This document shows positions 36,142-60,634 of a stretch of 64,000 nucleotides of DNA, in pieces. The DNA is taken from the IMG/VR virus record IMGVR_UViG_3300025576_000001, positions 1 through 64,000 of that record. One strand, 5' to 3'. Source of the stretch: a virus. The notes under the pieces are model-generated. The model saw nothing but the letters and a program-made list of their open reading frames with translations, did no database searches and had not been told where the DNA came from. Each line of letters starts with the position of its first letter. Positions within the stretch are counted from its first letter, which is position 1. The position numbers and the translations under genes were made by a program.

Positions 36142-36983
36142 TCTCCAACCCATTCGCTCGCGCGGGCTTCGAGCAAGGCGGCCAGCAGACCGGCAGCGGC
36201 GGGTCTTTCCACGTCGCCCGGGCCATCAGCGTGGGCGGCCAGATCATCCGCGTGGTATTCAGCAGCCCCCCAAAGGCCAAGAGTTCGGGCGCGCCAGACG
36301 ATGCCCTGAATGCCGCCAACTACCAAGTCTCGGTCACGACCGGAACCGGCGATACTCCGCAGTCCATCGCGACCTTCGCGACCGTGACGCTCTGGCCAGC
36401 CTTCGGGCTGCGTGCGGCTGGCGAGGCGTCAATTGACCTCCAGGTAGACCGTCCCCTCATCGTCGGCATGAGCTACACAGTGACGGCCTCGCACGCCTTG
36501 GTGGCGGCCGACGGGACGCCGATCGGCTCGCCCTACGGTTGGACGTTCAGCGGCTCCGCCAGGCCCATCCGCAAGCGGCAACAGCGCCGCGTGATCGGGC
36601 TGGTGGACTTCGCCAGCGACCCCTTCACGGGCGGGATTGCGGTCGACAAGTCGGGCGACTGGGCCAGCCAGGAGGGCGCGTCGGGAACCCGCAAGCGTAT
36701 CTGGCGGATCGCCCTCACGCCGTTCGGCGCGTTCTCGTTCCTGTCGAACTTCGGTCTCAAATACGACATCAAGAAGCCCGGAACCCTCAGCATCCTGGGC
36801 AGCCTGCGCACCGAGCTGAAACAGCAACTCCTGCAACAGCCCGACGTGAAGGACGCCAGTTCGTCAGTCACGATGGACCAGCGCGGGTTTCTTACCCTCA
36901 CGATCAATGCGCAGACCACGACGGGTCAGAAGCTCTCTGAGACCGTGCAGGCAACCCCCAGCGGAATGGTAACGACCCAATGA
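36138..36983 (+). CDS. Baseplate protein with gp25-like C-terminal domain
   Basis: 281 residues. The N-terminal half is Ig-like (ISVGGQIIRVVFSSPPKAKS, MSYTVTASHALVAADGTPIG). The C-terminal half (KRIWRIALTPFGAFSFLSNF, LGSLRTELKQQLLQQPDVKD) resembles gp25/gpW baseplate wedge proteins, including the end LTINAQTTTGQKLSETVQ. It lies just before the J-like gene, as expected. Confidence 0.6.
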   Translation: MISNPFARAGFEQGGQQTGSGGSFHVARAISVGGQIIRVVFSSPPKAKSSGAPDDALNAANYQVSVTTGTGDTPQSIATFATVTLWPAFGLRAAGEASIDLQVDRPLIVGMSYTVTASHALVAADGTPIGSPYGWTFSGSARPIRKRQQRRVIGLVDFASDPFTGGIAVDKSGDWASQEGASGTRKRIWRIALTPFGAFSFLSNFGLKYDIKKPGTLSILGSLRTELKQQLLQQPDVKDASSSVTMDQRGFLTLTINAQTTTGQKLSETVQATPSGMVTTQ

Positions 36984-38089
36984 GCGCCATGTTCGTTTCA
37001 CGCGCCGATTTGTTCTCCGTTGGTCGCGCCGCCATCGCGGGCACGCCTGGCATCCGCATCAACCCAGCCGTCATCGACATTCCTGGCAGCGATCTCAACC
37101 TCGCGGTCGGCGTCGATGCCGTCCTGGGCGAAGAGGTGTCGATGCGGTCCGCCTATGCGATGCGGGGCGCGTTCGCGGAGCTGGCGCGCGGCAATCAGCT
37201 CGACCGGGTCATCTACGACCGCTCGGGACTCCTGCGGTTCGGTGCCACACCGTCCAGCGTGGACCCGGTGTTGAGCCGACCGACCTCCACGAATGGCGCG
37301 GGAACCTACAAGGCCGGGTCGGTCGTCCAGACGGCAGATGGCACGCAGTTTGGCCTTGACAACGACGCCGTGTTCGGAGTTGCAGACCTGAGCGTGACGG
37401 TCTCGGCGACGGCCGTGACCTCGGGCGCCGATACCAATGTTGCGCCGGGCACCGTGACCGGCTTCTCGACTGCGCCCTTCGACTCGACCCTGACGGTCAC
37501 GAACCCAGCGAGCGCGGCCGGCGGGACCGACGCCGAGAGCGACATCGCGTTCCTGGGGCGATACCGCGGCTACTTCCCGACGTTGTCGAGAGGCACGATG
37601 GGTGCCATCGAGTACGCGGCCACGCAGGTGCCGGGCGTCGCGGTCGCGACCGCAACCGAGATCGTGAACCCCAACAGCGGCTACCCCGCATCCATCGTGC
37701 AGTTGGTGATCGGGGACGCAAGCGGCAACTCCACCAGCGACATGGTGACGGCCGTGGCCAACATGCTGCTCACCTACCGCGCGGGGGGAATTTTCGTTCA
37801 AGTTTTGACCGGCTCGGTATTCCAGCAGACCGTCACGTGGTCGCTGGCGTTCGAGACTGGAGTCAACGAAGCCCTCGCCCAGTCGCGCGTTCGAGCGGTG
37901 TCCGTGGCGGCCAGCCAGTTCCTCGCGCCGGGCGCCACGCTCTACAAGTCGACCCTCATCAGCGCGGCCAAGAAAGTGCCGGGCGTCATCATCAGCGACA
38001 GCTCGCTCGTCTATCCCTTGGGCGACGTCGAAACCACCAGCCCGGGCCAGATGATCCGAGTGGCATCAACGGCGGTGACTTTTCAATGA
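36980..38089 (+). CDS. Baseplate J-like protein
   Basis: 369 residues. The J-like features are TNPASAAGGTDAESDIAFLG followed by RYRGYFPTLSRGTMGAIEYA, then the end with ISAAKKVPGVIISDSSLVYP. It is one of the wedge proteins that form the outer baseplate. Its stop overlaps the next ATG. Confidence 0.75.
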   Translation: MSAMFVSRADLFSVGRAAIAGTPGIRINPAVIDIPGSDLNLAVGVDAVLGEEVSMRSAYAMRGAFAELARGNQLDRVIYDRSGLLRFGATPSSVDPVLSRPTSTNGAGTYKAGSVVQTADGTQFGLDNDAVFGVADLSVTVSATAVTSGADTNVAPGTVTGFSTAPFDSTLTVTNPASAAGGTDAESDIAFLGRYRGYFPTLSRGTMGAIEYAATQVPGVAVATATEIVNPNSGYPASIVQLVIGDASGNSTSDMVTAVANMLLTYRAGGIFVQVLTGSVFQQTVTWSLAFETGVNEALAQSRVRAVSVAASQFLAPGATLYKSTLISAAKKVPGVIISDSSLVYPLGDVETTSPGQMIRVASTAVTFQ

Positions 38090-40512
38090 GCGATTCCGGG
38101 CCACTTACGCAGGCGCAAGCGTTGGATGTATTACGCCGCACCTGCGACCGTGCGTGGCTCGACGCCATGCTCGCCCAGCCCGACGGCGCCGCCATCATCG
38201 CCAGCAAGCTCGCGGCGTTCGAGGCCGCCAGTCTCGCGGTGACGGCGCAGGCAAACGCCACCATGATCTCGACGGCGCCGACTGGTCGTCCGGGCGTCTG
38301 CACTCTCGCGCTTCAGCGCTCGGACACCTCGGCGAGCGCCACGATCCCAAAGGGCTATACGTTCATCACCAACCTGGGCGTCGAGCTGACGGTCGCGTGC
38401 GATGTGCAGGTTGCAGTCGGGCAAGCGACGGTGGCGCTGCCACTGGTCACGACTCGCCAGATCGATCTGGTCAACACGGCCGCGAATGCGTTCGACGACA
38501 TCCTGGACCCCGGCAACTACCCGGACGCGGTGCTGGGAACGGCGAACCCTCCGGTGTTCGTCAGCCGCTCTCCCCGCGCCCTCGTCGCGAACCGCAGCAG
38601 CAACGACGTGAGCTGGCTCGACCTCACGAACCCACTGCTGCCCGTCGTGCTCGCGACCGTCACCGTGGGCGTAGGCCCACCCGGCGTCGCTTTCTCGCCG
38701 GACGGCACCCGCGCCCTCGTCGCGAATTTCGGCAGCAACGACGTTAGTTGGCTCGACCTCACGAACCCACTGCTGCCCGTCGTGCTCGCGACCGTCACCG
38801 TGGGCTCAGGCCCGATCGGCGTCGCTATCTCGCCGGACGGCACCCGCGCCCTCGTCGCGAACCGCAGCAGCAACGACGTGAGCTGGCTCGACCTCACGAA
38901 CCCACTGCTGCCCGTCGTGCTCGCGACCGTCACCGTGGGCGTAAACCCATTCGGCGTCGCTATCTCGCCGGACAGCACCCGCGCCCTCGTCGCGAATTAC
39001 GGCAGCAACGACGTGAGCTGGCTCGACCTCACGAACCCACTGCTGCCCGTCGTGCTCGCGACCGTCACCGTGGGCTCAGGCCCGGTCGGAGTCGCTATCT
39101 CGCCGGACGGCACCCGCGCCCTCGTCCCGAATTACGGCAGCGCCAACGTGAGCTGGCTCGACCTCACGAACCCACTGCTGCCCGTCGTGCTCGCGACCGT
39201 CACCGTGGGCGTAGGCCCATACGGCGTCGCTATCTCGCCGGACGGCACCCGCGCCCTCGTCCCGAATTACGGCAGCGCCAACGTGAGCTGGCTCGACCTC
39301 ACGAACCCACTGCTGCCCGTCGTGCTCGCGACCGTCACCGTGGGCGTAAACCCGATCGGCGTCGCTATCTCGCCGGACGGCGAGCGCGCCCTCGTCGCGA
39401 ATTACAGCAGCAACGACGTGAGCTGGCTCGACCTCACGAACCCACTGCTGCCCGTCGTGCTCGCGACCGTCACCGTGGGCACAGGCCCATACGGCGTCGC
39501 TATCTCGCCGACGGCGAGCGCGGATGTGTTCGGCGATTTCGTCCGTTGCCTCACCTACGTCTCCTCAACTCCCATCACAGGCGCGTCGAGCGACTGGCTG
39601 AGCGCCCTTGGCAATGAGCGCGGCTGCATTCGCCAGGACGGCGAAGACGGCGAAGCGTACCGAGCCCGTGTCCGCATGATACCCGACGCCGTGAGTCCGC
39701 TCGCCATCGCGCGGGCCGTGGACGCGACCGCAACGGCACTGCCTGAGCGCTGGCTGGCCGAGCCTTTCAACGACGGCGCGGATCCCAATGTGAAGCTCGC
39801 AGCGAATCTCGGGTTCTTCGACGGCTTCTTCTGCGATAGCGACTTCTGCGACGACCCACTCGGCGTGTCGCTGGCCGACAAGCAACCGGTGGCGAACCTC
39901 GAATGCTCGGGCATTCGCGAGAGTCGCGCCTACGTGCGGGTCGACCTCGTGGGGCAATTGCAAGAGCCCGACGGTCTTGTCCTGTACTGTGACGATGGTT
40001 TCTGCGACGACCCGCAGTGGGGCTACCCGGATGTCCACACCCACCCGGTCATCCAGGGAGCCGAGCAGGCGCTGCTGCAACAGATGCAACTCAAGGTGGC
40101 GGGCGGCGTGAACTTCGATGTCTACCTGGAGAACTCGGAGACGCTCGTACAGCAGGGCACCTTGAGCGGCACCACGAGCGCAGGGGGTACGCCGGTCATC
40201 ACGCTTACGCCAGTGGCCGGAACTGCCTGGTATTTGCGCGAGGGTCTGCTGACCGCCGACATGGGCAACCGCCACTGGGCAGTCACGGGACAGGGCATCG
40301 CGGTACGGCTCACGCTCGACGATGGGTCCACGCTGCAAACCCCCTGGGCGCAGGGCGTGGTGTCGCTGCGCTCCTATGAGCTGGAGGCGCTCGGCTACCG
40401 AGGCCAGCGCGTGACCAGCATCGAGTGCTTGGGGCTCACGCTCTACGACCTCGAACCGCCCTACAGCATGAATTTGATCGGTAGTTTCACCGTGAATACG
40501 GCTACACTCTAG
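38086..40512 (+). CDS. Baseplate protein with inserted seven-repeat beta-propeller
   Basis: 808 residues from ATG 38086. The N-terminal part is a baseplate module. Residues about 164-478 are seven repeats of 45 residues, each with RALVAN, NDVSWLDLTNPLLPVVLATV and GVAISPDGT, the YVTN/NHL-like pattern of a seven-bladed propeller. The C-terminal part returns to baseplate-like sequence, with two Cys/Asp motifs (FCDSDFCDDPLG, YCDDGFCDDPQWG) and a strand-rich end. The propeller probably acts as a binding domain on the baseplate. Confidence 0.75.
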   Translation: MSDSGPLTQAQALDVLRRTCDRAWLDAMLAQPDGAAIIASKLAAFEAASLAVTAQANATMISTAPTGRPGVCTLALQRSDTSASATIPKGYTFITNLGVELTVACDVQVAVGQATVALPLVTTRQIDLVNTAANAFDDILDPGNYPDAVLGTANPPVFVSRSPRALVANRSSNDVSWLDLTNPLLPVVLATVTVGVGPPGVAFSPDGTRALVANFGSNDVSWLDLTNPLLPVVLATVTVGSGPIGVAISPDGTRALVANRSSNDVSWLDLTNPLLPVVLATVTVGVNPFGVAISPDSTRALVANYGSNDVSWLDLTNPLLPVVLATVTVGSGPVGVAISPDGTRALVPNYGSANVSWLDLTNPLLPVVLATVTVGVGPYGVAISPDGTRALVPNYGSANVSWLDLTNPLLPVVLATVTVGVNPIGVAISPDGERALVANYSSNDVSWLDLTNPLLPVVLATVTVGTGPYGVAISPTASADVFGDFVRCLTYVSSTPITGASSDWLSALGNERGCIRQDGEDGEAYRARVRMIPDAVSPLAIARAVDATATALPERWLAEPFNDGADPNVKLAANLGFFDGFFCDSDFCDDPLGVSLADKQPVANLECSGIRESRAYVRVDLVGQLQEPDGLVLYCDDGFCDDPQWGYPDVHTHPVIQGAEQALLQQMQLKVAGGVNFDVYLENSETLVQQGTLSGTTSAGGTPVITLTPVAGTAWYLREGLLTADMGNRHWAVTGQGIAVRLTLDDGSTLQTPWAQGVVSLRSYELEALGYRGQRVTSIECLGLTLYDLEPPYSMNLIGSFTVNTATL
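38575..39519 (+). repeat. 7 x 135-bp in-frame tandem repeat
   Basis: Units start at 38575, 38710, 38845, 38980, 39115, 39250 and 39385. The 60-odd bases encoding WLDLTNPLLPVVLATVTVG are nearly identical between units, while codons for the residue pairs after VANx and VGxxP vary. The near-identity at DNA level suggests recent expansion or gene conversion. Confidence 0.9.
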
Positions 40513-46087: not shown

Positions 46088-48451
46088 ATGCGGCGCGCCC
46101 TCCTGGTCCTGGTGCTGTTGGCCGGCCTCGTGGGGACGGCCCGCGCGGGCAATCTGTACGTCGCGACGACTGGCAGCGATTCGGCGGCCTGCTCGCTCGC
46201 AGCTCCCTGTCAGACAATCGCGCATGTGCAGACGGTCGCGCAGGGACTAATCGCCTCGGGCCTGACTCAGCCGCTGTACATCTGGGTCCACGCGGGCACG
46301 TACCAGCAGAGCACGGGCCTGACATTCGGCGCGGCCGACTCGGGCACTAGCAGCTTTCCAGTGTACTGGCTGGGATTCCCCGGTGAGCCTGCACCCGTCA
46401 TCTCGGGCGGCGCACCCGTGACCGGATGGACCCACGACACCGGCTCAATCTACAAGGCCAATGTCGGCACTTCATGGAATTTCCGACAACTCTACGTCAA
46501 CCCAGGCTTGCCACATGGGGTACATGCGCAGCGAGCACGGGGCACTTACCAGCCGGCCGGGTGGGTCCGCACGTCTACCGGGTACACGCCCCCGGACGAT
46601 TCCATGGAGGCATGGGGCAATCCCACGGACGTCGAGATCGTGAGCCTCGGACCGTGGTCCATGGATCGCCTCAAGGCAGCGTCTCTGTCTGGAGGTCTCA
46701 GCGTCACGATCAACATGTTATCAGGTCCCGTCACCACCTGGAATTATCAAGGACCTTATGCCTCCACGGAAGTGGGCATGCCATTTACCTCGGACGTGGC
46801 AGGTCAGGTGACCGGACTGCGTTTCTGGCGTTCACAGCTTAATGGAGCCGACACCGGGACGCATATCGGGCACCTGTGGGACGCCGTAGGGAACCTCCTC
46901 GCCACGGCCACTTTTGCGGCATCCAGCATAACTGGCTGGGATGATGTGCAGTTGATCCCACCCGTCAGCATCTTGGCATCCACGACCTATGTTGTCTCCT
47001 ACGAGACTGGCCCAATCATAACTGCCACTTATGGCATATGGCCGGTCGACAATGCCCCGTTGCACGCGACAGGAGGATCGCTCTCGACCACCCCTGGATT
47101 GTTCCCGAGTACCCCTACCGCTCACACCTATTGGGTAGATCTGGATTTTACTTACACTGGACCTCCGAGCAATGCCATCGTGATGGCAAATCCTGGCTGG
47201 ACGAACCAACAAGGCATCCTGGCATCGTATGATGTAAATCCCACGCCAACGTGGGTGGAAAATGCCTATGAACTGATGTCCTCGGGATACTGGTATCTCG
47301 ACAGGACGTCAGGGTACCTGTACTATTGGCCTCCCTCGGGCTCGATGGCCGGCACCACCGTCGTGGCTCCCGTGGTGGATCCCTTGTTGACCGTCTCGGG
47401 GGGAAGCTATATCCAGTTCGGCTCGCCCACCAATCCCCTCGTCTTCGCGTACTCGAACTGGGTCGGGCCGGACTCCACGACAGGGTATGTAGGAGAGCAG
47501 AATGGCTATACATGGGTGACGGTCTCCACAGCCATACAGACCCTCGATGCAGCCCTGGTGATTAATGGCAGCACGAATATCTCTTTCAATGGGGATCAGC
47601 TCTCCCATCTCGGTTCGCGGGTATTCCTGATCGAGGACGGCAGCTCCAACGTCAGCATCATCAACAACAGGTTCGACGACAATGCGGCCGGGGCCGTCCA
47701 GATTGGCACCATCGGAACCTGTCCCGCCGGCTGTCCTTCTTTCGTGCGAGAGAATGATGTCCTGTTCGCAAACAACATCATAGCGACCGGCAACGATTTT
47801 GATTATCTGGACACTGGCGCCATCTTCGCGCCTGCCATGTCCAATTCCACAATCGCCAATAATGAGATTGACAGCATACCGTGGGGACCCGTCACGCTTG
47901 GCTGGGGATGGGGAGCGACACCCTATTGCTCGAACAACACTGTCAACAACAACAGCATAAACAATCCCTGCATCGGGCCTCCACGGCTTGGCTGGGATTG
48001 TGGAAGCATATATTCAGTGGGAGCCCAGTCCTCAGCGAGTACCTATGCGACAGGCTTGTTCGTCACGGGAAATTATTCACAGGGATCCGTGGGCGCTCTG
48101 CCAGTTTCCGGGGGTTTGTATCTCGACACGGGTACTGCCTGGAGCACCTGGGAAAACAACAACATGCTTGGCTCTTACAATTACTGGGCCGAGATCGGTT
48201 CGCAGGCCAACAACGACAAATTGCTCAACAACTACACGGACAATAATGTCCTCATCAACAATGGGGTGAACATCACCATCGTCGGTCCCATCGTCATCCC
48301 GGGCAGTGCCCAGGCATTCGGCACGGGAGCGCGATCCATAGTCTGCGGTGCCGGCGTGCCTGGCTCGACGGCCTGCACGACGCCAACGCTCTGGCCGACC
48401 TGGCAGAGCGGCGTGGGCGCGACGTGGAGTCACCCGCAGATTGGACCATGA
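46088..48451 (+). CDS. Secreted right-handed beta-helix protein with DUF4082
   Basis: 787 residues. A signal peptide (MRRALLVLVLLAGLVGTARA, cut after ARA) is followed by a pectate-lyase-like start, NLYVATTGSDSAACSLAAPC. Residues about 215-355 match DUF4082: VGMPFTSDVAGQVTGLRFWR, then TGTHIGHLWDAVGNLLATAT and GWDDVQLIPPVSILASTTYV. A beta-helix rich in Asn follows (INNRFDDNAAGAVQIG; NNTVNNNSINNP). It could degrade or bind a polysaccharide. Base and codon use shift toward A/T in the Asn-rich part, consistent with transfer. Confidence 0.7.
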   Translation: MRRALLVLVLLAGLVGTARAGNLYVATTGSDSAACSLAAPCQTIAHVQTVAQGLIASGLTQPLYIWVHAGTYQQSTGLTFGAADSGTSSFPVYWLGFPGEPAPVISGGAPVTGWTHDTGSIYKANVGTSWNFRQLYVNPGLPHGVHAQRARGTYQPAGWVRTSTGYTPPDDSMEAWGNPTDVEIVSLGPWSMDRLKAASLSGGLSVTINMLSGPVTTWNYQGPYASTEVGMPFTSDVAGQVTGLRFWRSQLNGADTGTHIGHLWDAVGNLLATATFAASSITGWDDVQLIPPVSILASTTYVVSYETGPIITATYGIWPVDNAPLHATGGSLSTTPGLFPSTPTAHTYWVDLDFTYTGPPSNAIVMANPGWTNQQGILASYDVNPTPTWVENAYELMSSGYWYLDRTSGYLYYWPPSGSMAGTTVVAPVVDPLLTVSGGSYIQFGSPTNPLVFAYSNWVGPDSTTGYVGEQNGYTWVTVSTAIQTLDAALVINGSTNISFNGDQLSHLGSRVFLIEDGSSNVSIINNRFDDNAAGAVQIGTIGTCPAGCPSFVRENDVLFANNIIATGNDFDYLDTGAIFAPAMSNSTIANNEIDSIPWGPVTLGWGWGATPYCSNNTVNNNSINNPCIGPPRLGWDCGSIYSVGAQSSASTYATGLFVTGNYSQGSVGALPVSGGLYLDTGTAWSTWENNNMLGSYNYWAEIGSQANNDKLLNNYTDNNVLINNGVNITIVGPIVIPGSAQAFGTGARSIVCGAGVPGSTACTTPTLWPTWQSGVGATWSHPQIGP

Positions 48452-57244: not shown

Positions 57245-58222
57245 ATGACGACGAAGAACACAGACGGCAGCGACCTGACGCTGATGTCGGTGATGACGCG
57301 CTTTTCTACGGAAGAGGCAGCGCGTGACTACTTCGAGAGCATCCGCTGGCCCGAAGGCCCGACCTGCCCGCACTGTGGAAACGCTGACCAGGCACGCATC
57401 TACGCCCTCACTCCCGACGCTGGCTCCAAGGTCCGGCCGGGCCTCCGTAAGTGTGGCGACTGCCGCGACACCTTCACCGTGACCGTCGGAACCGTGATGG
57501 AGGATTCACACATCCCGTTGAACAAGTGGCTGATCGCCTTCTACATGATGTGTGCCAGCAAGACCCAAGTCTCGGCGTTGCAGCTCATGCGCCAGCTTGA
57601 GATCGGCTCCTACCACACCGCGCTTTTCCTCTGCCACCGCATCCGGTTCGCTCTCGCCGAGTTCTTCCCGACGCAGAAACTTGCTGGCACGGTTGAGGCT
57701 GATGAAACTTACCTGGGTGGTAAGATGCGCGGACGTGGACGAGGCTACGTGAAGAACAAGACCGCAGTCGTCTCGCTCGTCGAGCGTGATGGGAACGTGC
57801 GCTCGCGCGTGATCGGCTCCGACACCGTGACGGGCAAGGCGATCACGACCCTCCTGAAAGAGCACGTTGCCGAGACGGCCCATCTGAACACGGACGAGTC
57901 ACCCCTTTACACCCAGGTCGGAACTCACTTCGCATCCCACGACACCGTGAACCACAGCAAAGAAGAGTACGCCCGCAAGGACAAGGACACCGACCGCCTG
58001 GCGACCACCAACACGGTCGAGGGCTTCTTCGGAAACGCCAAGCGCAGCATCGATGGCACCCACCACAACATCAGCCGTCGGCGCACGGGCCTCTACATGG
58101 CCGAGATCGATCACAAGTACAACACGCGCAAGATGACCGATGGTGAGCGCACCGTGGTCGGCATCCGGCGCATGGAAGGGAAGCGGCTCTTTGCTCGCTC
58201 CCCGAAGCGGAAGGTCGGATAG
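57245..58222 (+). CDS. IS1595-family transposase
   Basis: 325 residues. An N-terminal zinc ribbon (CPHCG...CGDC at 41-73) precedes the catalytic domain. The acidic residues are in TVEADETYLGGKMRGRGRGY (D153), LNTDESPLY (D217) and NTVEGFFGNAKRSI (E259), followed by GTHHNISRRR. This is the ISXO2-like layout. The stop is directly followed by the ATG of the methylase gene, with no gap, so the two are likely one transcript. It catalyses cut or copy and insertion of the element. Confidence 0.9.
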   Translation: MTTKNTDGSDLTLMSVMTRFSTEEAARDYFESIRWPEGPTCPHCGNADQARIYALTPDAGSKVRPGLRKCGDCRDTFTVTVGTVMEDSHIPLNKWLIAFYMMCASKTQVSALQLMRQLEIGSYHTALFLCHRIRFALAEFFPTQKLAGTVEADETYLGGKMRGRGRGYVKNKTAVVSLVERDGNVRSRVIGSDTVTGKAITTLLKEHVAETAHLNTDESPLYTQVGTHFASHDTVNHSKEEYARKDKDTDRLATTNTVEGFFGNAKRSIDGTHHNISRRRTGLYMAEIDHKYNTRKMTDGERTVVGIRRMEGKRLFARSPKRKVG

Positions 58223-60634
58223 ATGGCAAAGCCAGCGCGCATAGCAGAGGTGCGAGCCGAGCACCTATTGACTGAGTTGCTCACGTCTCAGGGCTGGAAT
58301 GTAGAACATCCCCCGAAGGGTGAACTACTGCGCCAGGGGGAATACAGGGACCACCCTCACCTACTGGACATCTTCAAAGGCAAGAGCAAGTCGTCCGGCG
58401 GTGGCGACGGAATGCCCGAGGCTTTGCTTGTTGACGAGAATCTGCAACCACTGGCCGTGGTGGAGGCCAAGGGTTCCGCCAAGGATCTTCCCAAAGCCAT
58501 CGACGAGGTAACAAACAAGTACGGTACGTGGTGCGTGGAGGCCGGATACACTCCCATCGCAATCGCGCTTGCCGGAACCACCGAGACGTCATTTGTGTTG
58601 CAGGTGTTCAAGTGGTCCAAAAACAAATGGATCACCGTCACCTATGACGGCAACCCTATCAGTTGGATTCCCAACCGCACCGACCTGGAACACTTGCGGG
58701 CACCCAACACACTAGCCGAATTGCGCCCGTCCGTTCCTCCGGCAGCGGTACTCGCCACCCGTGCCGACGAGATCAACCGCCTGCTACGTGAGGCCAATAT
58801 CACCGATGCCCAGCGCCCGGCGATCGTTGGATCAATTATGCTGGCACTGTGGAAATCAAAAGGCCAAATTCGGCGCGATCCGGAGTACATCCTTGGGGAC
58901 ATCAACGAAGCGTCTTCCAGGGCATTTTGGACAGCCGAGAAAGCCAGCATCGCGGACAGCCTACGGGTGCCCATCGCGAACAAGGATCTGGCCAAGAGGG
59001 CGGTGCGCATCGTTTCCATCTTGGAGCGACTTGGCGTAACTGTCCTGAGCGCAGAAACGGACTACCTGGGCCAACTGTACGAGACTTTCTTCACTTACGT
59101 CGGAGGTAACACAATAGGACAGATTTTCACTCCAAGGCACATGACCGCTTTCATGGCGGAAATCGCGGACGTGCAGCGCGATGACGATGTGCTTGACCCG
59201 GCGTGTGGGACAGGGGGCTTTCTGATCGCTGCCATGAACCGCGTGCAGCGACGTGGCAAGTTGTCACGGGTGCAGATGATCGAAATTGTGAAGAAGCACT
59301 TGGTAGGCTTTGAAGTTGAGCCCACCACGGCGGCTCTCTGCATTGCCAATATGGTACTGCGTGGGGACGGCTCCACGCGGGTACATCCGGTTAGTTGTTT
59401 CACGTCGAAGAAGTTCGAGGTTGGTCAAGCCAATATCGTCTTGATGAACCCTCCATTTCCTCACGAGTCGACCGACAGACCTCCGGAGGAGTTCATTGCA
59501 AGGGCACTGGAAGGACTGCGAACCCGTGGCCTATTCGTGGCAATCGTTCCGCAGTCCCTCTTGGTCAAGCGTGAGAAGCAGCAGTGGCGCGACGAGATCC
59601 TGCAAAAGCATACACTTAGCGGAGTGATCACCTTGCCGGATGAACTCTTTCAACCGTTTGCGGCTGCCACCACGGCCATCCTAATCTTGGAAAAGGGCAT
59701 ACCGCACCCCAATGATCGACGTGTCTTTTTTGCCAGGGTGGAGAACGACGGATTCAAATTGAAGAAGGGTGTGCGCATTCCACGTGAGGGAGACGAATTG
59801 CCAACTATACTTGATGCCTATCGTAACAAAAAGACAATCCCTGGCATTAGCGGACTTTCAGTGCTTGATCGAGATCGGAGTTTCGCGCCGGGCGCCTATA
59901 TCCCTGCGCGGCCTTTGAGTGAAGCGGAAGTGACTGCGGGAGTTCTCGCACTCATCCGCAACCGCACCGCGTTCACGACCTTACACGCTGCCGAGATCGT
60001 TAATCTCAGACGTGAGGCCAGTTCGTACCGTGCGATGAAGAAGTCGCCCATCCCTAGCGCGCCCACTAGCAAAACGATCGGCGGCTACTTCGATATTTTC
60101 TACGGGCAGAAAAGCCTTCACAACAAGGAGAAGTTGCTATTGGGCACATCCCTCGTGATCTCGTCAAGCGGCGTGGACAATGGTTGCTACGGTTTCTTTG
60201 ATCTCGAAACCTTGATTGAGCCTCCGTTTGTCACCGTTCCTAGCACCGGAAGCATTGCGGTGGCTCATGTTCAAGAATTGCCGTGTGGGGTTACGGATGA
60301 CTGTTTGATCATGCTACCCAAAAAGGACGTGCCGCACGAGCTTCTCTATGTTGCAGCCGCAGTCATTCGGTCAGAGGCATGGAGGTTTAGCTACGGCAGG
60401 AAGGCGACTCCGGATCGCATATCTGGCTTCCCGTTACCTGTCGGCAAGGAGTTGATTGAGTGTGTGCGCGTTTACATGGAACGAGCGGCACAGGTGGAAC
60501 ACCTTGCACTAGAACATGCAGAGGATGCAATTGACGAACAGATAGCACGCAAACGACGGTTACAGGAGAAGGAGAATCCCGGAAGGCTCATTGGTGGAGA
60601 TATGTTAGAGAAAAGGCTGGCGGAGCTGGAATAG
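58223..60634 (+). CDS. Single-chain restriction-modification enzyme (nuclease-methylase-specificity)
   Basis: 803 residues. The N-terminal part has a PD-(D/E)xK-like site (MPEALLV...LAVVEAKG, E66, E81, K83) with HLLDIFKGKS before it. The methylase part has FTPRHMTAFMAEI, DPACGTGGFLIAAM (324-337) and VLMNPPFPHE (NPPF at 408-411), the N6-adenine type. The last 230 residues (TSKTIGGYFDIFYGQKSLHN, SLVISSSGVDNGCYGFF) resemble the target-recognition part of type I specificity subunits. It should both cut and methylate its site. More AT-rich than phage genes. Confidence 0.8.
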   Translation: MAKPARIAEVRAEHLLTELLTSQGWNVEHPPKGELLRQGEYRDHPHLLDIFKGKSKSSGGGDGMPEALLVDENLQPLAVVEAKGSAKDLPKAIDEVTNKYGTWCVEAGYTPIAIALAGTTETSFVLQVFKWSKNKWITVTYDGNPISWIPNRTDLEHLRAPNTLAELRPSVPPAAVLATRADEINRLLREANITDAQRPAIVGSIMLALWKSKGQIRRDPEYILGDINEASSRAFWTAEKASIADSLRVPIANKDLAKRAVRIVSILERLGVTVLSAETDYLGQLYETFFTYVGGNTIGQIFTPRHMTAFMAEIADVQRDDDVLDPACGTGGFLIAAMNRVQRRGKLSRVQMIEIVKKHLVGFEVEPTTAALCIANMVLRGDGSTRVHPVSCFTSKKFEVGQANIVLMNPPFPHESTDRPPEEFIARALEGLRTRGLFVAIVPQSLLVKREKQQWRDEILQKHTLSGVITLPDELFQPFAAATTAILILEKGIPHPNDRRVFFARVENDGFKLKKGVRIPREGDELPTILDAYRNKKTIPGISGLSVLDRDRSFAPGAYIPARPLSEAEVTAGVLALIRNRTAFTTLHAAEIVNLRREASSYRAMKKSPIPSAPTSKTIGGYFDIFYGQKSLHNKEKLLLGTSLVISSSGVDNGCYGFFDLETLIEPPFVTVPSTGSIAVAHVQELPCGVTDDCLIMLPKKDVPHELLYVAAAVIRSEAWRFSYGRKATPDRISGFPLPVGKELIECVRVYMERAAQVEHLALEHAEDAIDEQIARKRRLQEKENPGRLIGGDMLEKRLAELE

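Follow-up and report, generated by a model that had tools for sequence, protein, structure and literature searches.

The seven tandem repeats at positions 38575-39519 of the window (the whole 64,000-nucleotide stretch analysed, taken from IMG/VR record IMGVR_UViG_3300025576_000001) encode what appears to be a whole YVTN beta-propeller of seven blades, inserted as a domain into a probable tail-tip protein of the phage. Both the propeller and its insertion are well supported. The fuller explanation that we favour, and regard as somewhat probable, is that this propeller is an outward binding head, built by recent amplification of its blades, with recombination maintaining their similarity.

Tandem Repeats Finder (TRF) places a 135-bp unit, in 7.0 copies, at 38573-39515, with 91% matches, 0% indels and a score of 1553, at which a chance array is not an issue; it detects no second array of the same kind in the 64,000-nt window. 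The units read in frame from 38575 and make up residues 164-478 of an 808-aa protein. The seven near-identical 135-bp repeats of the original prediction are thus confirmed by both TRF and the reading frame. The features of the array are listed below.

38575-39519, forward strand: seven tandem 135-bp units, read as a seven-bladed YVTN beta-propeller on repeat, profile and model evidence
38575-38709, forward strand: unit 1, codons 5-11 ANRSSND, codons 33-36 VGPP
38710-38844, forward strand: unit 2, codons 5-11 ANFGSND, codons 33-36 SGPI
38845-38979, forward strand: unit 3, codons 5-11 ANRSSND, codons 33-36 VNPF
38980-39114, forward strand: unit 4, codons 5-11 ANYGSND, codons 33-36 SGPV
39115-39249, forward strand: unit 5, codons 5-11 PNYGSAN, codons 33-36 VGPY
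39250-39384, forward strand: unit 6, codons 5-11 PNYGSAN, codons 33-36 VNPI
39385-39519, forward strand: unit 7, codons 5-11 ANYSSND, codons 33-36 TGPY, final codons TAS
38614-38670, forward strand: 57-nt core of unit 1 (codons 14-32), the same in all seven units
39510-39522, forward strand: 3' junction, where the repeat homology runs on but one G of the unit 6 sequence is missing and the frame enters the downstream part

The unit consensus is RALV(A/P)N...GVA(I/F)SPDGT. The unit ends first described hold in part: RALVAN is found in units 1-4 and 7, units 5 and 6 having RALVPN, and the other end, given as GVAISPDGT, reads GVAFSPDGT in unit 1, GVAISPDST in unit 3, GVAISPDGE in unit 6 and ISPTAS in unit 7. 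The ISPTAS ending follows from the one-base shortfall relative to unit 6, which brings the downstream frame in; the homology to unit 6 persists for about 12 bases past the missing G, and the arrangement resembles a frame-restoring junction. We claim no target-site duplication, as the sole 7-mer shared by the 60-bp flanks is GTGTTCG (at 38554 and 39526) and a shared 7-mer occurs in 24% of pairs of randomly drawn 60-bp stretches.

Nucleotide identity between units averages 92.5% (pairwise range 88.9-96.0; over 126 nt), with 107 of the 126 columns invariant across all seven, and two-unit windows are 87-89% identical at the protein level. Recently amplified propellers are recognized by pairwise blade identities above 60% and by few synonymous differences between blades, and the array displays both properties: only five extra synonymous codon states occur in 42 codons, and none within the 57-nt core. 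The recent growth or homogenization that had been proposed for the repeats is supported.

The YVTN assignment rests on profile and structural comparisons. The YVTN beta-propeller repeat model TIGR02276 matches the whole protein in six stretches with E=1.7e-38 (130.3 bits, for a cut-off of 27.85), and matches the record in seven stretches, one per unit, of which four exceed the single-stretch cut-off. The best solved sequence relative is the archaeal surface-layer propeller 1L0Q_A (E=1e-45). An AlphaFold2 model of residues 159-483, based on an alignment of eight YVTN propellers from viral-collection contigs, displays four-stranded blades and a velcro closure, with a pLDDT of 94.5 and a pTM of 0.91; modelling had been proposed for residues 150-490, and the outcome is a propeller, as anticipated. 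With this predicted model as query, Foldseek ranks 1L0Q first (E=5.6e-27), as does VIA-align 2 (1L0Q_A; Z 47.4, rmsd 1.4 A, 40% identity over 296 residues). The model also resembles designed seven-bladed WRAP-T proteins (7bid, Z 41.5 in VIA-align 2). Together, TIGR02276 and the comparison of the model with 1L0Q bear out the YVTN-type repeats and the closed ring of seven blades expected from the letters of the sequence.

In unit numbering, the model places strand B at codons 1-6, strand C at 11-16, strand D at 24-30 and strand A at 37-40. The array opens with strand B and closes with strand A, so that the last strand of unit 7 is predicted to complete the first blade, giving a velcro-closed ring with its termini side by side. 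Termini so placed in the model are what a plug-in domain needs.

The gene that carries the array lies directly downstream of a Baseplate_J-like gene, whose stop codon overlaps its start (ATGA).

36980-38089, forward strand: Baseplate_J-like gene, 369 aa (PF04865, E=2.6e-21; phrog_6 baseplate wedge subunit, E=1.6e-29)
38086-40512, forward strand: propeller carrier gene, an open frame of 808 aa, assigned to the baseplate module by position, with a syntenic 497-aa homologue that has no propeller
38086-38571, forward strand: N-terminal shell domain, residues 1-162, 68% identical to its counterpart in the relative described below, no Pfam match
39523-40512, forward strand: C-terminal shell domain, 59-63% identical to its counterpart in the same relative (E 1e-117)

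With tblastn, the Baseplate_J-like protein is matched in 97 of 50,697 phage records, with 24-26% identity among the 15 matches listed. Neither the shell parts of the 808-aa protein nor its 497-aa homologue gave a Pfam match, even at E=1; the C-terminal shell matches PHROG baseplate families at sub-threshold values only (E 0.03-0.17), and its comparison with the J alignment detected no profile similarity. For these reasons we call the carrier a baseplate-region protein by its position beside the Baseplate_J gene. As a candidate member of the Baseplate_J family it was rejected, PF04865 failing to match outside the propeller. The proposal of a propeller within a baseplate gene thus stands as regards one whole inserted domain, but its baseplate label derives from position and from the sub-threshold PHROG matches.

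The insertion is best seen by comparison with the single relative in which we found the carrier gene, IMG/VR record IMGVR_UViG_3300031344_000005 (G001). The J proteins of the window and of G001 (locus L002) are 83% identical, and the G001 carrier homologue (L002:5500-6993, 497 aa) aligns with both flanks of the array, the N-terminal part at 68% and the C-terminal part at 62% identity, without a propeller between them. No YVTN match was detected in G001. From these sequences, the whole ring appears to have been gained or lost as one domain; with one relative carrying the gene, gain here and loss in G001 are equally compatible with the comparison. Scans with J, with the C-terminal alignment and with the single C-terminal protein each returned G001 as the sole record. 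Single-protein queries with the N-terminal part and with the propeller, and the C-terminal alignment searched in genome contigs, returned no relatives. A tblastn search of phage records gave no match for the whole 808-aa protein, and one record at E=1 for the propeller.

We may hypothesize that the seven-bladed YVTN ring is held as an inserted domain of a tail-tip protein in the following way. The two ends of the domain would meet where strands A and B of a single blade are separated, and the ring would be tethered by its bottom face. From the topology of a four-stranded meander, one face is formed by the BC and DA loops, and the opposite one by the AB and CD loops together with both termini. 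The top face, with its BC and DA loops, would then be directed away from the shell; this orientation is argued from topology, given that a fold prediction for the whole protein from a two-row alignment reached a pLDDT of 33.5 and was not used. As a putative binding surface, the top face would recognize a ligand on the host surface.

The variable codons are concentrated in the loops assigned to this face. Amino acid changes affect 3/4 codons of the BC loop, 3/6 of the DA loop, none of seven in the CD loop, 2/5 of the AB loop and 3/23 in the strands, the final three unit 7 codons being assigned to the flank and excluded. Taken together, BC and DA loops vary at six of ten codons, as against 5/35 elsewhere (Fisher P=0.007) and 2/12 in the AB and CD loops (P=0.048); loop limits were taken from the strands of the model, and the test was made with the variation already known. 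An earlier enrichment test (P=0.0002) was set aside, since its limits had been picked after the variable columns were seen. Most of the varied positions are thus at loop residues, as first noted. Codon 36 is the most variable and encodes P, I, F, V, Y, I and Y across units 1-7.

Positive selection in the window array did not reach significance. Replacement and synonymous changes number 11 to 1 in the top loops (P=0.157) and 14 to 5 over all 42 codons (P=0.545), and the pN/pS of the array is 1.56. Relaxed constraint on the loops can therefore explain the pattern of variation.

Related arrays were sought in viral contigs, where the YVTN alignment retrieved 32 loci and the G001 repeat 78 loci; in 62 of these 110 loci there is a tandem array whose period is divisible by three and at least 90 bp long. 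Motif counts in 12 arrays give seven in nine cases and six in three (L096, L097, L107), where the motif may have missed divergent blades. Given these counts, and given that seven units running from strand B to strand A close the ring, copy-number change, which the original prediction had considered, is unlikely as a mode of variation.

Column by column, the variety of the window array is correlated with that of four of four arrays compared, L094, L095, L098 and L099 (Spearman 0.39-0.49, permutation P 0.001-0.012), with the provisos that L094 and L095 are allelic, making the four correlations non-independent, and that a shared tolerance of loops would give the same result. The comparison leaves aside L101, as well as L096 and L097 with six motif hits each and five arrays with other types of blade repeat (L102, L107, L112, L121, L124). 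Taken singly, neither L094 (8/20 variable columns) nor L095 (5/12) is enriched for variation in the picked loops, which counts against the binding-head explanation, as does the larger synonymous divergence of the 126-bp G001 array described below.

The allelic pair L094 and L095 (about 3.8-4.8 kb) is 99.7% identical upstream and 99.9% downstream of a seven-unit YVTN array that is itself only 86.9% identical. For three of the seven units in L094, identity to the closest unit of L095 does not exceed 88%, and the difference thus amounts to more than reordering. This 13% difference may reflect either a fast-changing propeller or an assembly effect. The product has a signal-peptide-like start and later domains that resemble a surface-layer protein, and the pair may be cellular. 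In a second pair, the phages L099 and L122, the sequences are 91-93% identical on both sides, yet the seven-unit propellers at their common fibre locus (L099:2346-3707, L122:3061-4667) are not the same: L099 encodes a seven-bladed YVTN ring within a fibre-like gene, whereas the fibre-like gene of L122 has another end and is followed by a frame that codes for a different propeller.

These results bear on the principal alternative, in which the propeller is structural or decorative (a spacer, or a contact between proteins within the virion) and the loop variants are neutral drift after recent amplification. Propellers are generic contact scaffolds, the excess of replacement changes is not significant and the G001 relative does without the ring, all of which would suit such a role. 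Similar columns, however, vary in other YVTN arrays, although a shared loop tolerance would do likewise; fibre-like genes of other phages carry such rings; and the propeller of the phi11 baseplate receptor-binding protein (RBP) has been proposed to bind GlcNAc (PMC4901313). We consider a purely structural ring possible, if rather unlikely. That paper also reports that the phi11 RBP propeller is five-bladed and that phiKZ gp131C, at the periphery of the baseplate, has a seven-bladed one. A propeller at the baseplate is therefore less unusual than was first suggested. Both proteins would be like the window protein in having a propeller at the baseplate with a proposed role in receptor binding, but differ in protein architecture, and near-identical repeats are not mentioned in the sections of that paper dealing with them.

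Returning to the binding-head explanation, the blades would derive from the recent amplification of a single blade, and recombination with crossovers in the invariant core would homogenize the framework and reassort the BC- and DA-loop variants. Among the 14 variable codons, 13 four-gamete conflicts are observed. Several of them involve codon 34, whose alleles GGC and AAC lie two bases apart, which makes recurrent mutation less likely at this codon. At the sequence level the 13 conflicts point to exchange between units, although recurrent mutation could also produce them; a possible exchange track is the invariant core, which separates the BC from the DA segment. The quick change of the binding face suggested earlier is not borne out for this phage, our search having found no second allele of it. 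Judged from sequence, ligand binding and rapid change are both plausible.

An assembly artefact, in which the unit number differs in nature or the array is a chimera of alleles, deserves attention in a record from a metagenome-based public virus collection: the longest exact repeat inside the array is 123 bp, and a short-read assembly error in copy number is thus possible. Yet the seven copies are in the correct strand phase to close a ring, all seven units differ from one another, and seven is also the number of motifs in 9/12 of the related arrays counted. We regard an artefact as quite improbable.

Targeted hypermutation by a diversity-generating retroelement might be suspected at codon 36, which has the form NNC in 7/7 units (CCC, ATC, TTC, GTC, TAC, ATC, TAC); an AAC template would yield such a pattern. 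Codons ending in C are, however, expected at about 65% GC. The reverse transcriptase domain RVT_1 has no match in this record or in G001 (0/2; the records may be incomplete), the same search having matched 3/14 control genomes. A template copy is likewise missing: among the matches listed, no unit or array match better than E=0.36 was obtained in the rest of the record (the array-masked window and locus L014). Lacking both RVT_1 and a second copy of the unit, the retroelement explanation is unsupported and very improbable. Equally hard to credit is a lactonase-like enzyme domain: the Pfam Lactonase match (PF10282, E=2.4e-10) is above the cut-off but reflects the common blade fold, and sequence and fold match 1L0Q best.

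Among known systems, 1L0Q shares the repeat family and the seven-bladed fold, but it belongs to a cellular surface protein with a PKD domain, whereas the window array lies within a probable phage tail-module protein and has near-identical blades. All major propeller lineages show continuing amplification from single blades, among them lactonase-like families and some viral members (PMC9218822, Pereira and Lupas 2022), and these recently amplified propellers likewise have nearly identical blades derived from one blade. The main text of that paper contains neither 'phage' nor 'YVTN', and the passages compared here describe no phage baseplate insertion, no empty site and no concentration of variants in top loops. 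A further analogy is offered by the WD40 propellers of the fungal HET-D, HET-E and HNWD proteins, in which the repeats evolve in concert and positive selection acts on four codons of the d-a and b-c loops (PMC1805685, PMC2873952). There too, near-identical repeats have their variable residues in the top-of-ring d-a and b-c loops, the concentration seen in the window array. The fungal proteins are, however, NLR-like, use WD40 rather than YVTN repeats and have demonstrated positive selection, and we claim no shared descent. Searches of titles and abstracts for a propeller together with baseplate, phage tail, YVTN or hypervariability found no description of this combination. Recently amplified propellers and phage receptor-binding propellers are both known; their combination, with a natural empty site, looks new.

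Phages must change their binding target, and fast routes to this end include retroelements and fibre-tip swapping. If the binding-head explanation is true, the seven-blade ring would be a further route, requiring homologous recombination only, and would tie together three separate bodies of work, on newly amplified propellers, on the receptor-binding propellers of phages and on the fungal receptors for self-recognition. More broadly, some uncultured phages might diversify a tail-tip binding face free of retroelements: in a closed ring whose near-identical blades share an invariant core, recombination would redistribute the loop variants of the blades in an HNWD-like manner, and phages would gain, lose or exchange whole rings as plug-ins; we put this forward very tentatively and think it doubtful as a general scheme.

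Several other repeats and genes were observed in the two records. At 46088-48451 of the window, a 787-aa gene has a DUF4082 domain (E=6.9e-27), matches a right-handed beta-helix weakly and may encode a tail spike or depolymerase. A stretch of lower GC (0.55-0.59) at 57245-60634 contains an IS1595 transposase followed by a DNA-methyltransferase-like gene. Locus L014 of the same record contains a perfect 190-bp tandem duplication (L014:5966-6347, record positions 69966-70347), a 24-bp x 9.6 array (L014:5071-5300) and a 15-bp x 21.5 array resembling pentapeptide repeats (L014:556-877). In G001, a collagen-like GXX-repeat gene and then what appears by eye to be a glycosyltransferase gene lie between the spike-like and J genes (L002:1091-3561), and a distal tail-region gene (L015:2416-3357) has a repeat that is kelch-like by eye, with Pfam Kelch_3 at E=0.031 only. 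A distal G001 gene with a signal-like start has a 126-bp array of six 42-residue repeats (WTIRSSAADNSW...; L006:17739-18494). Its amino acid variation falls at codons 11, 13, 27 and 28, codon 13 being NNC in 6/6 repeats, and its synonymous divergence is the larger (pS 0.168, pN 0.048).
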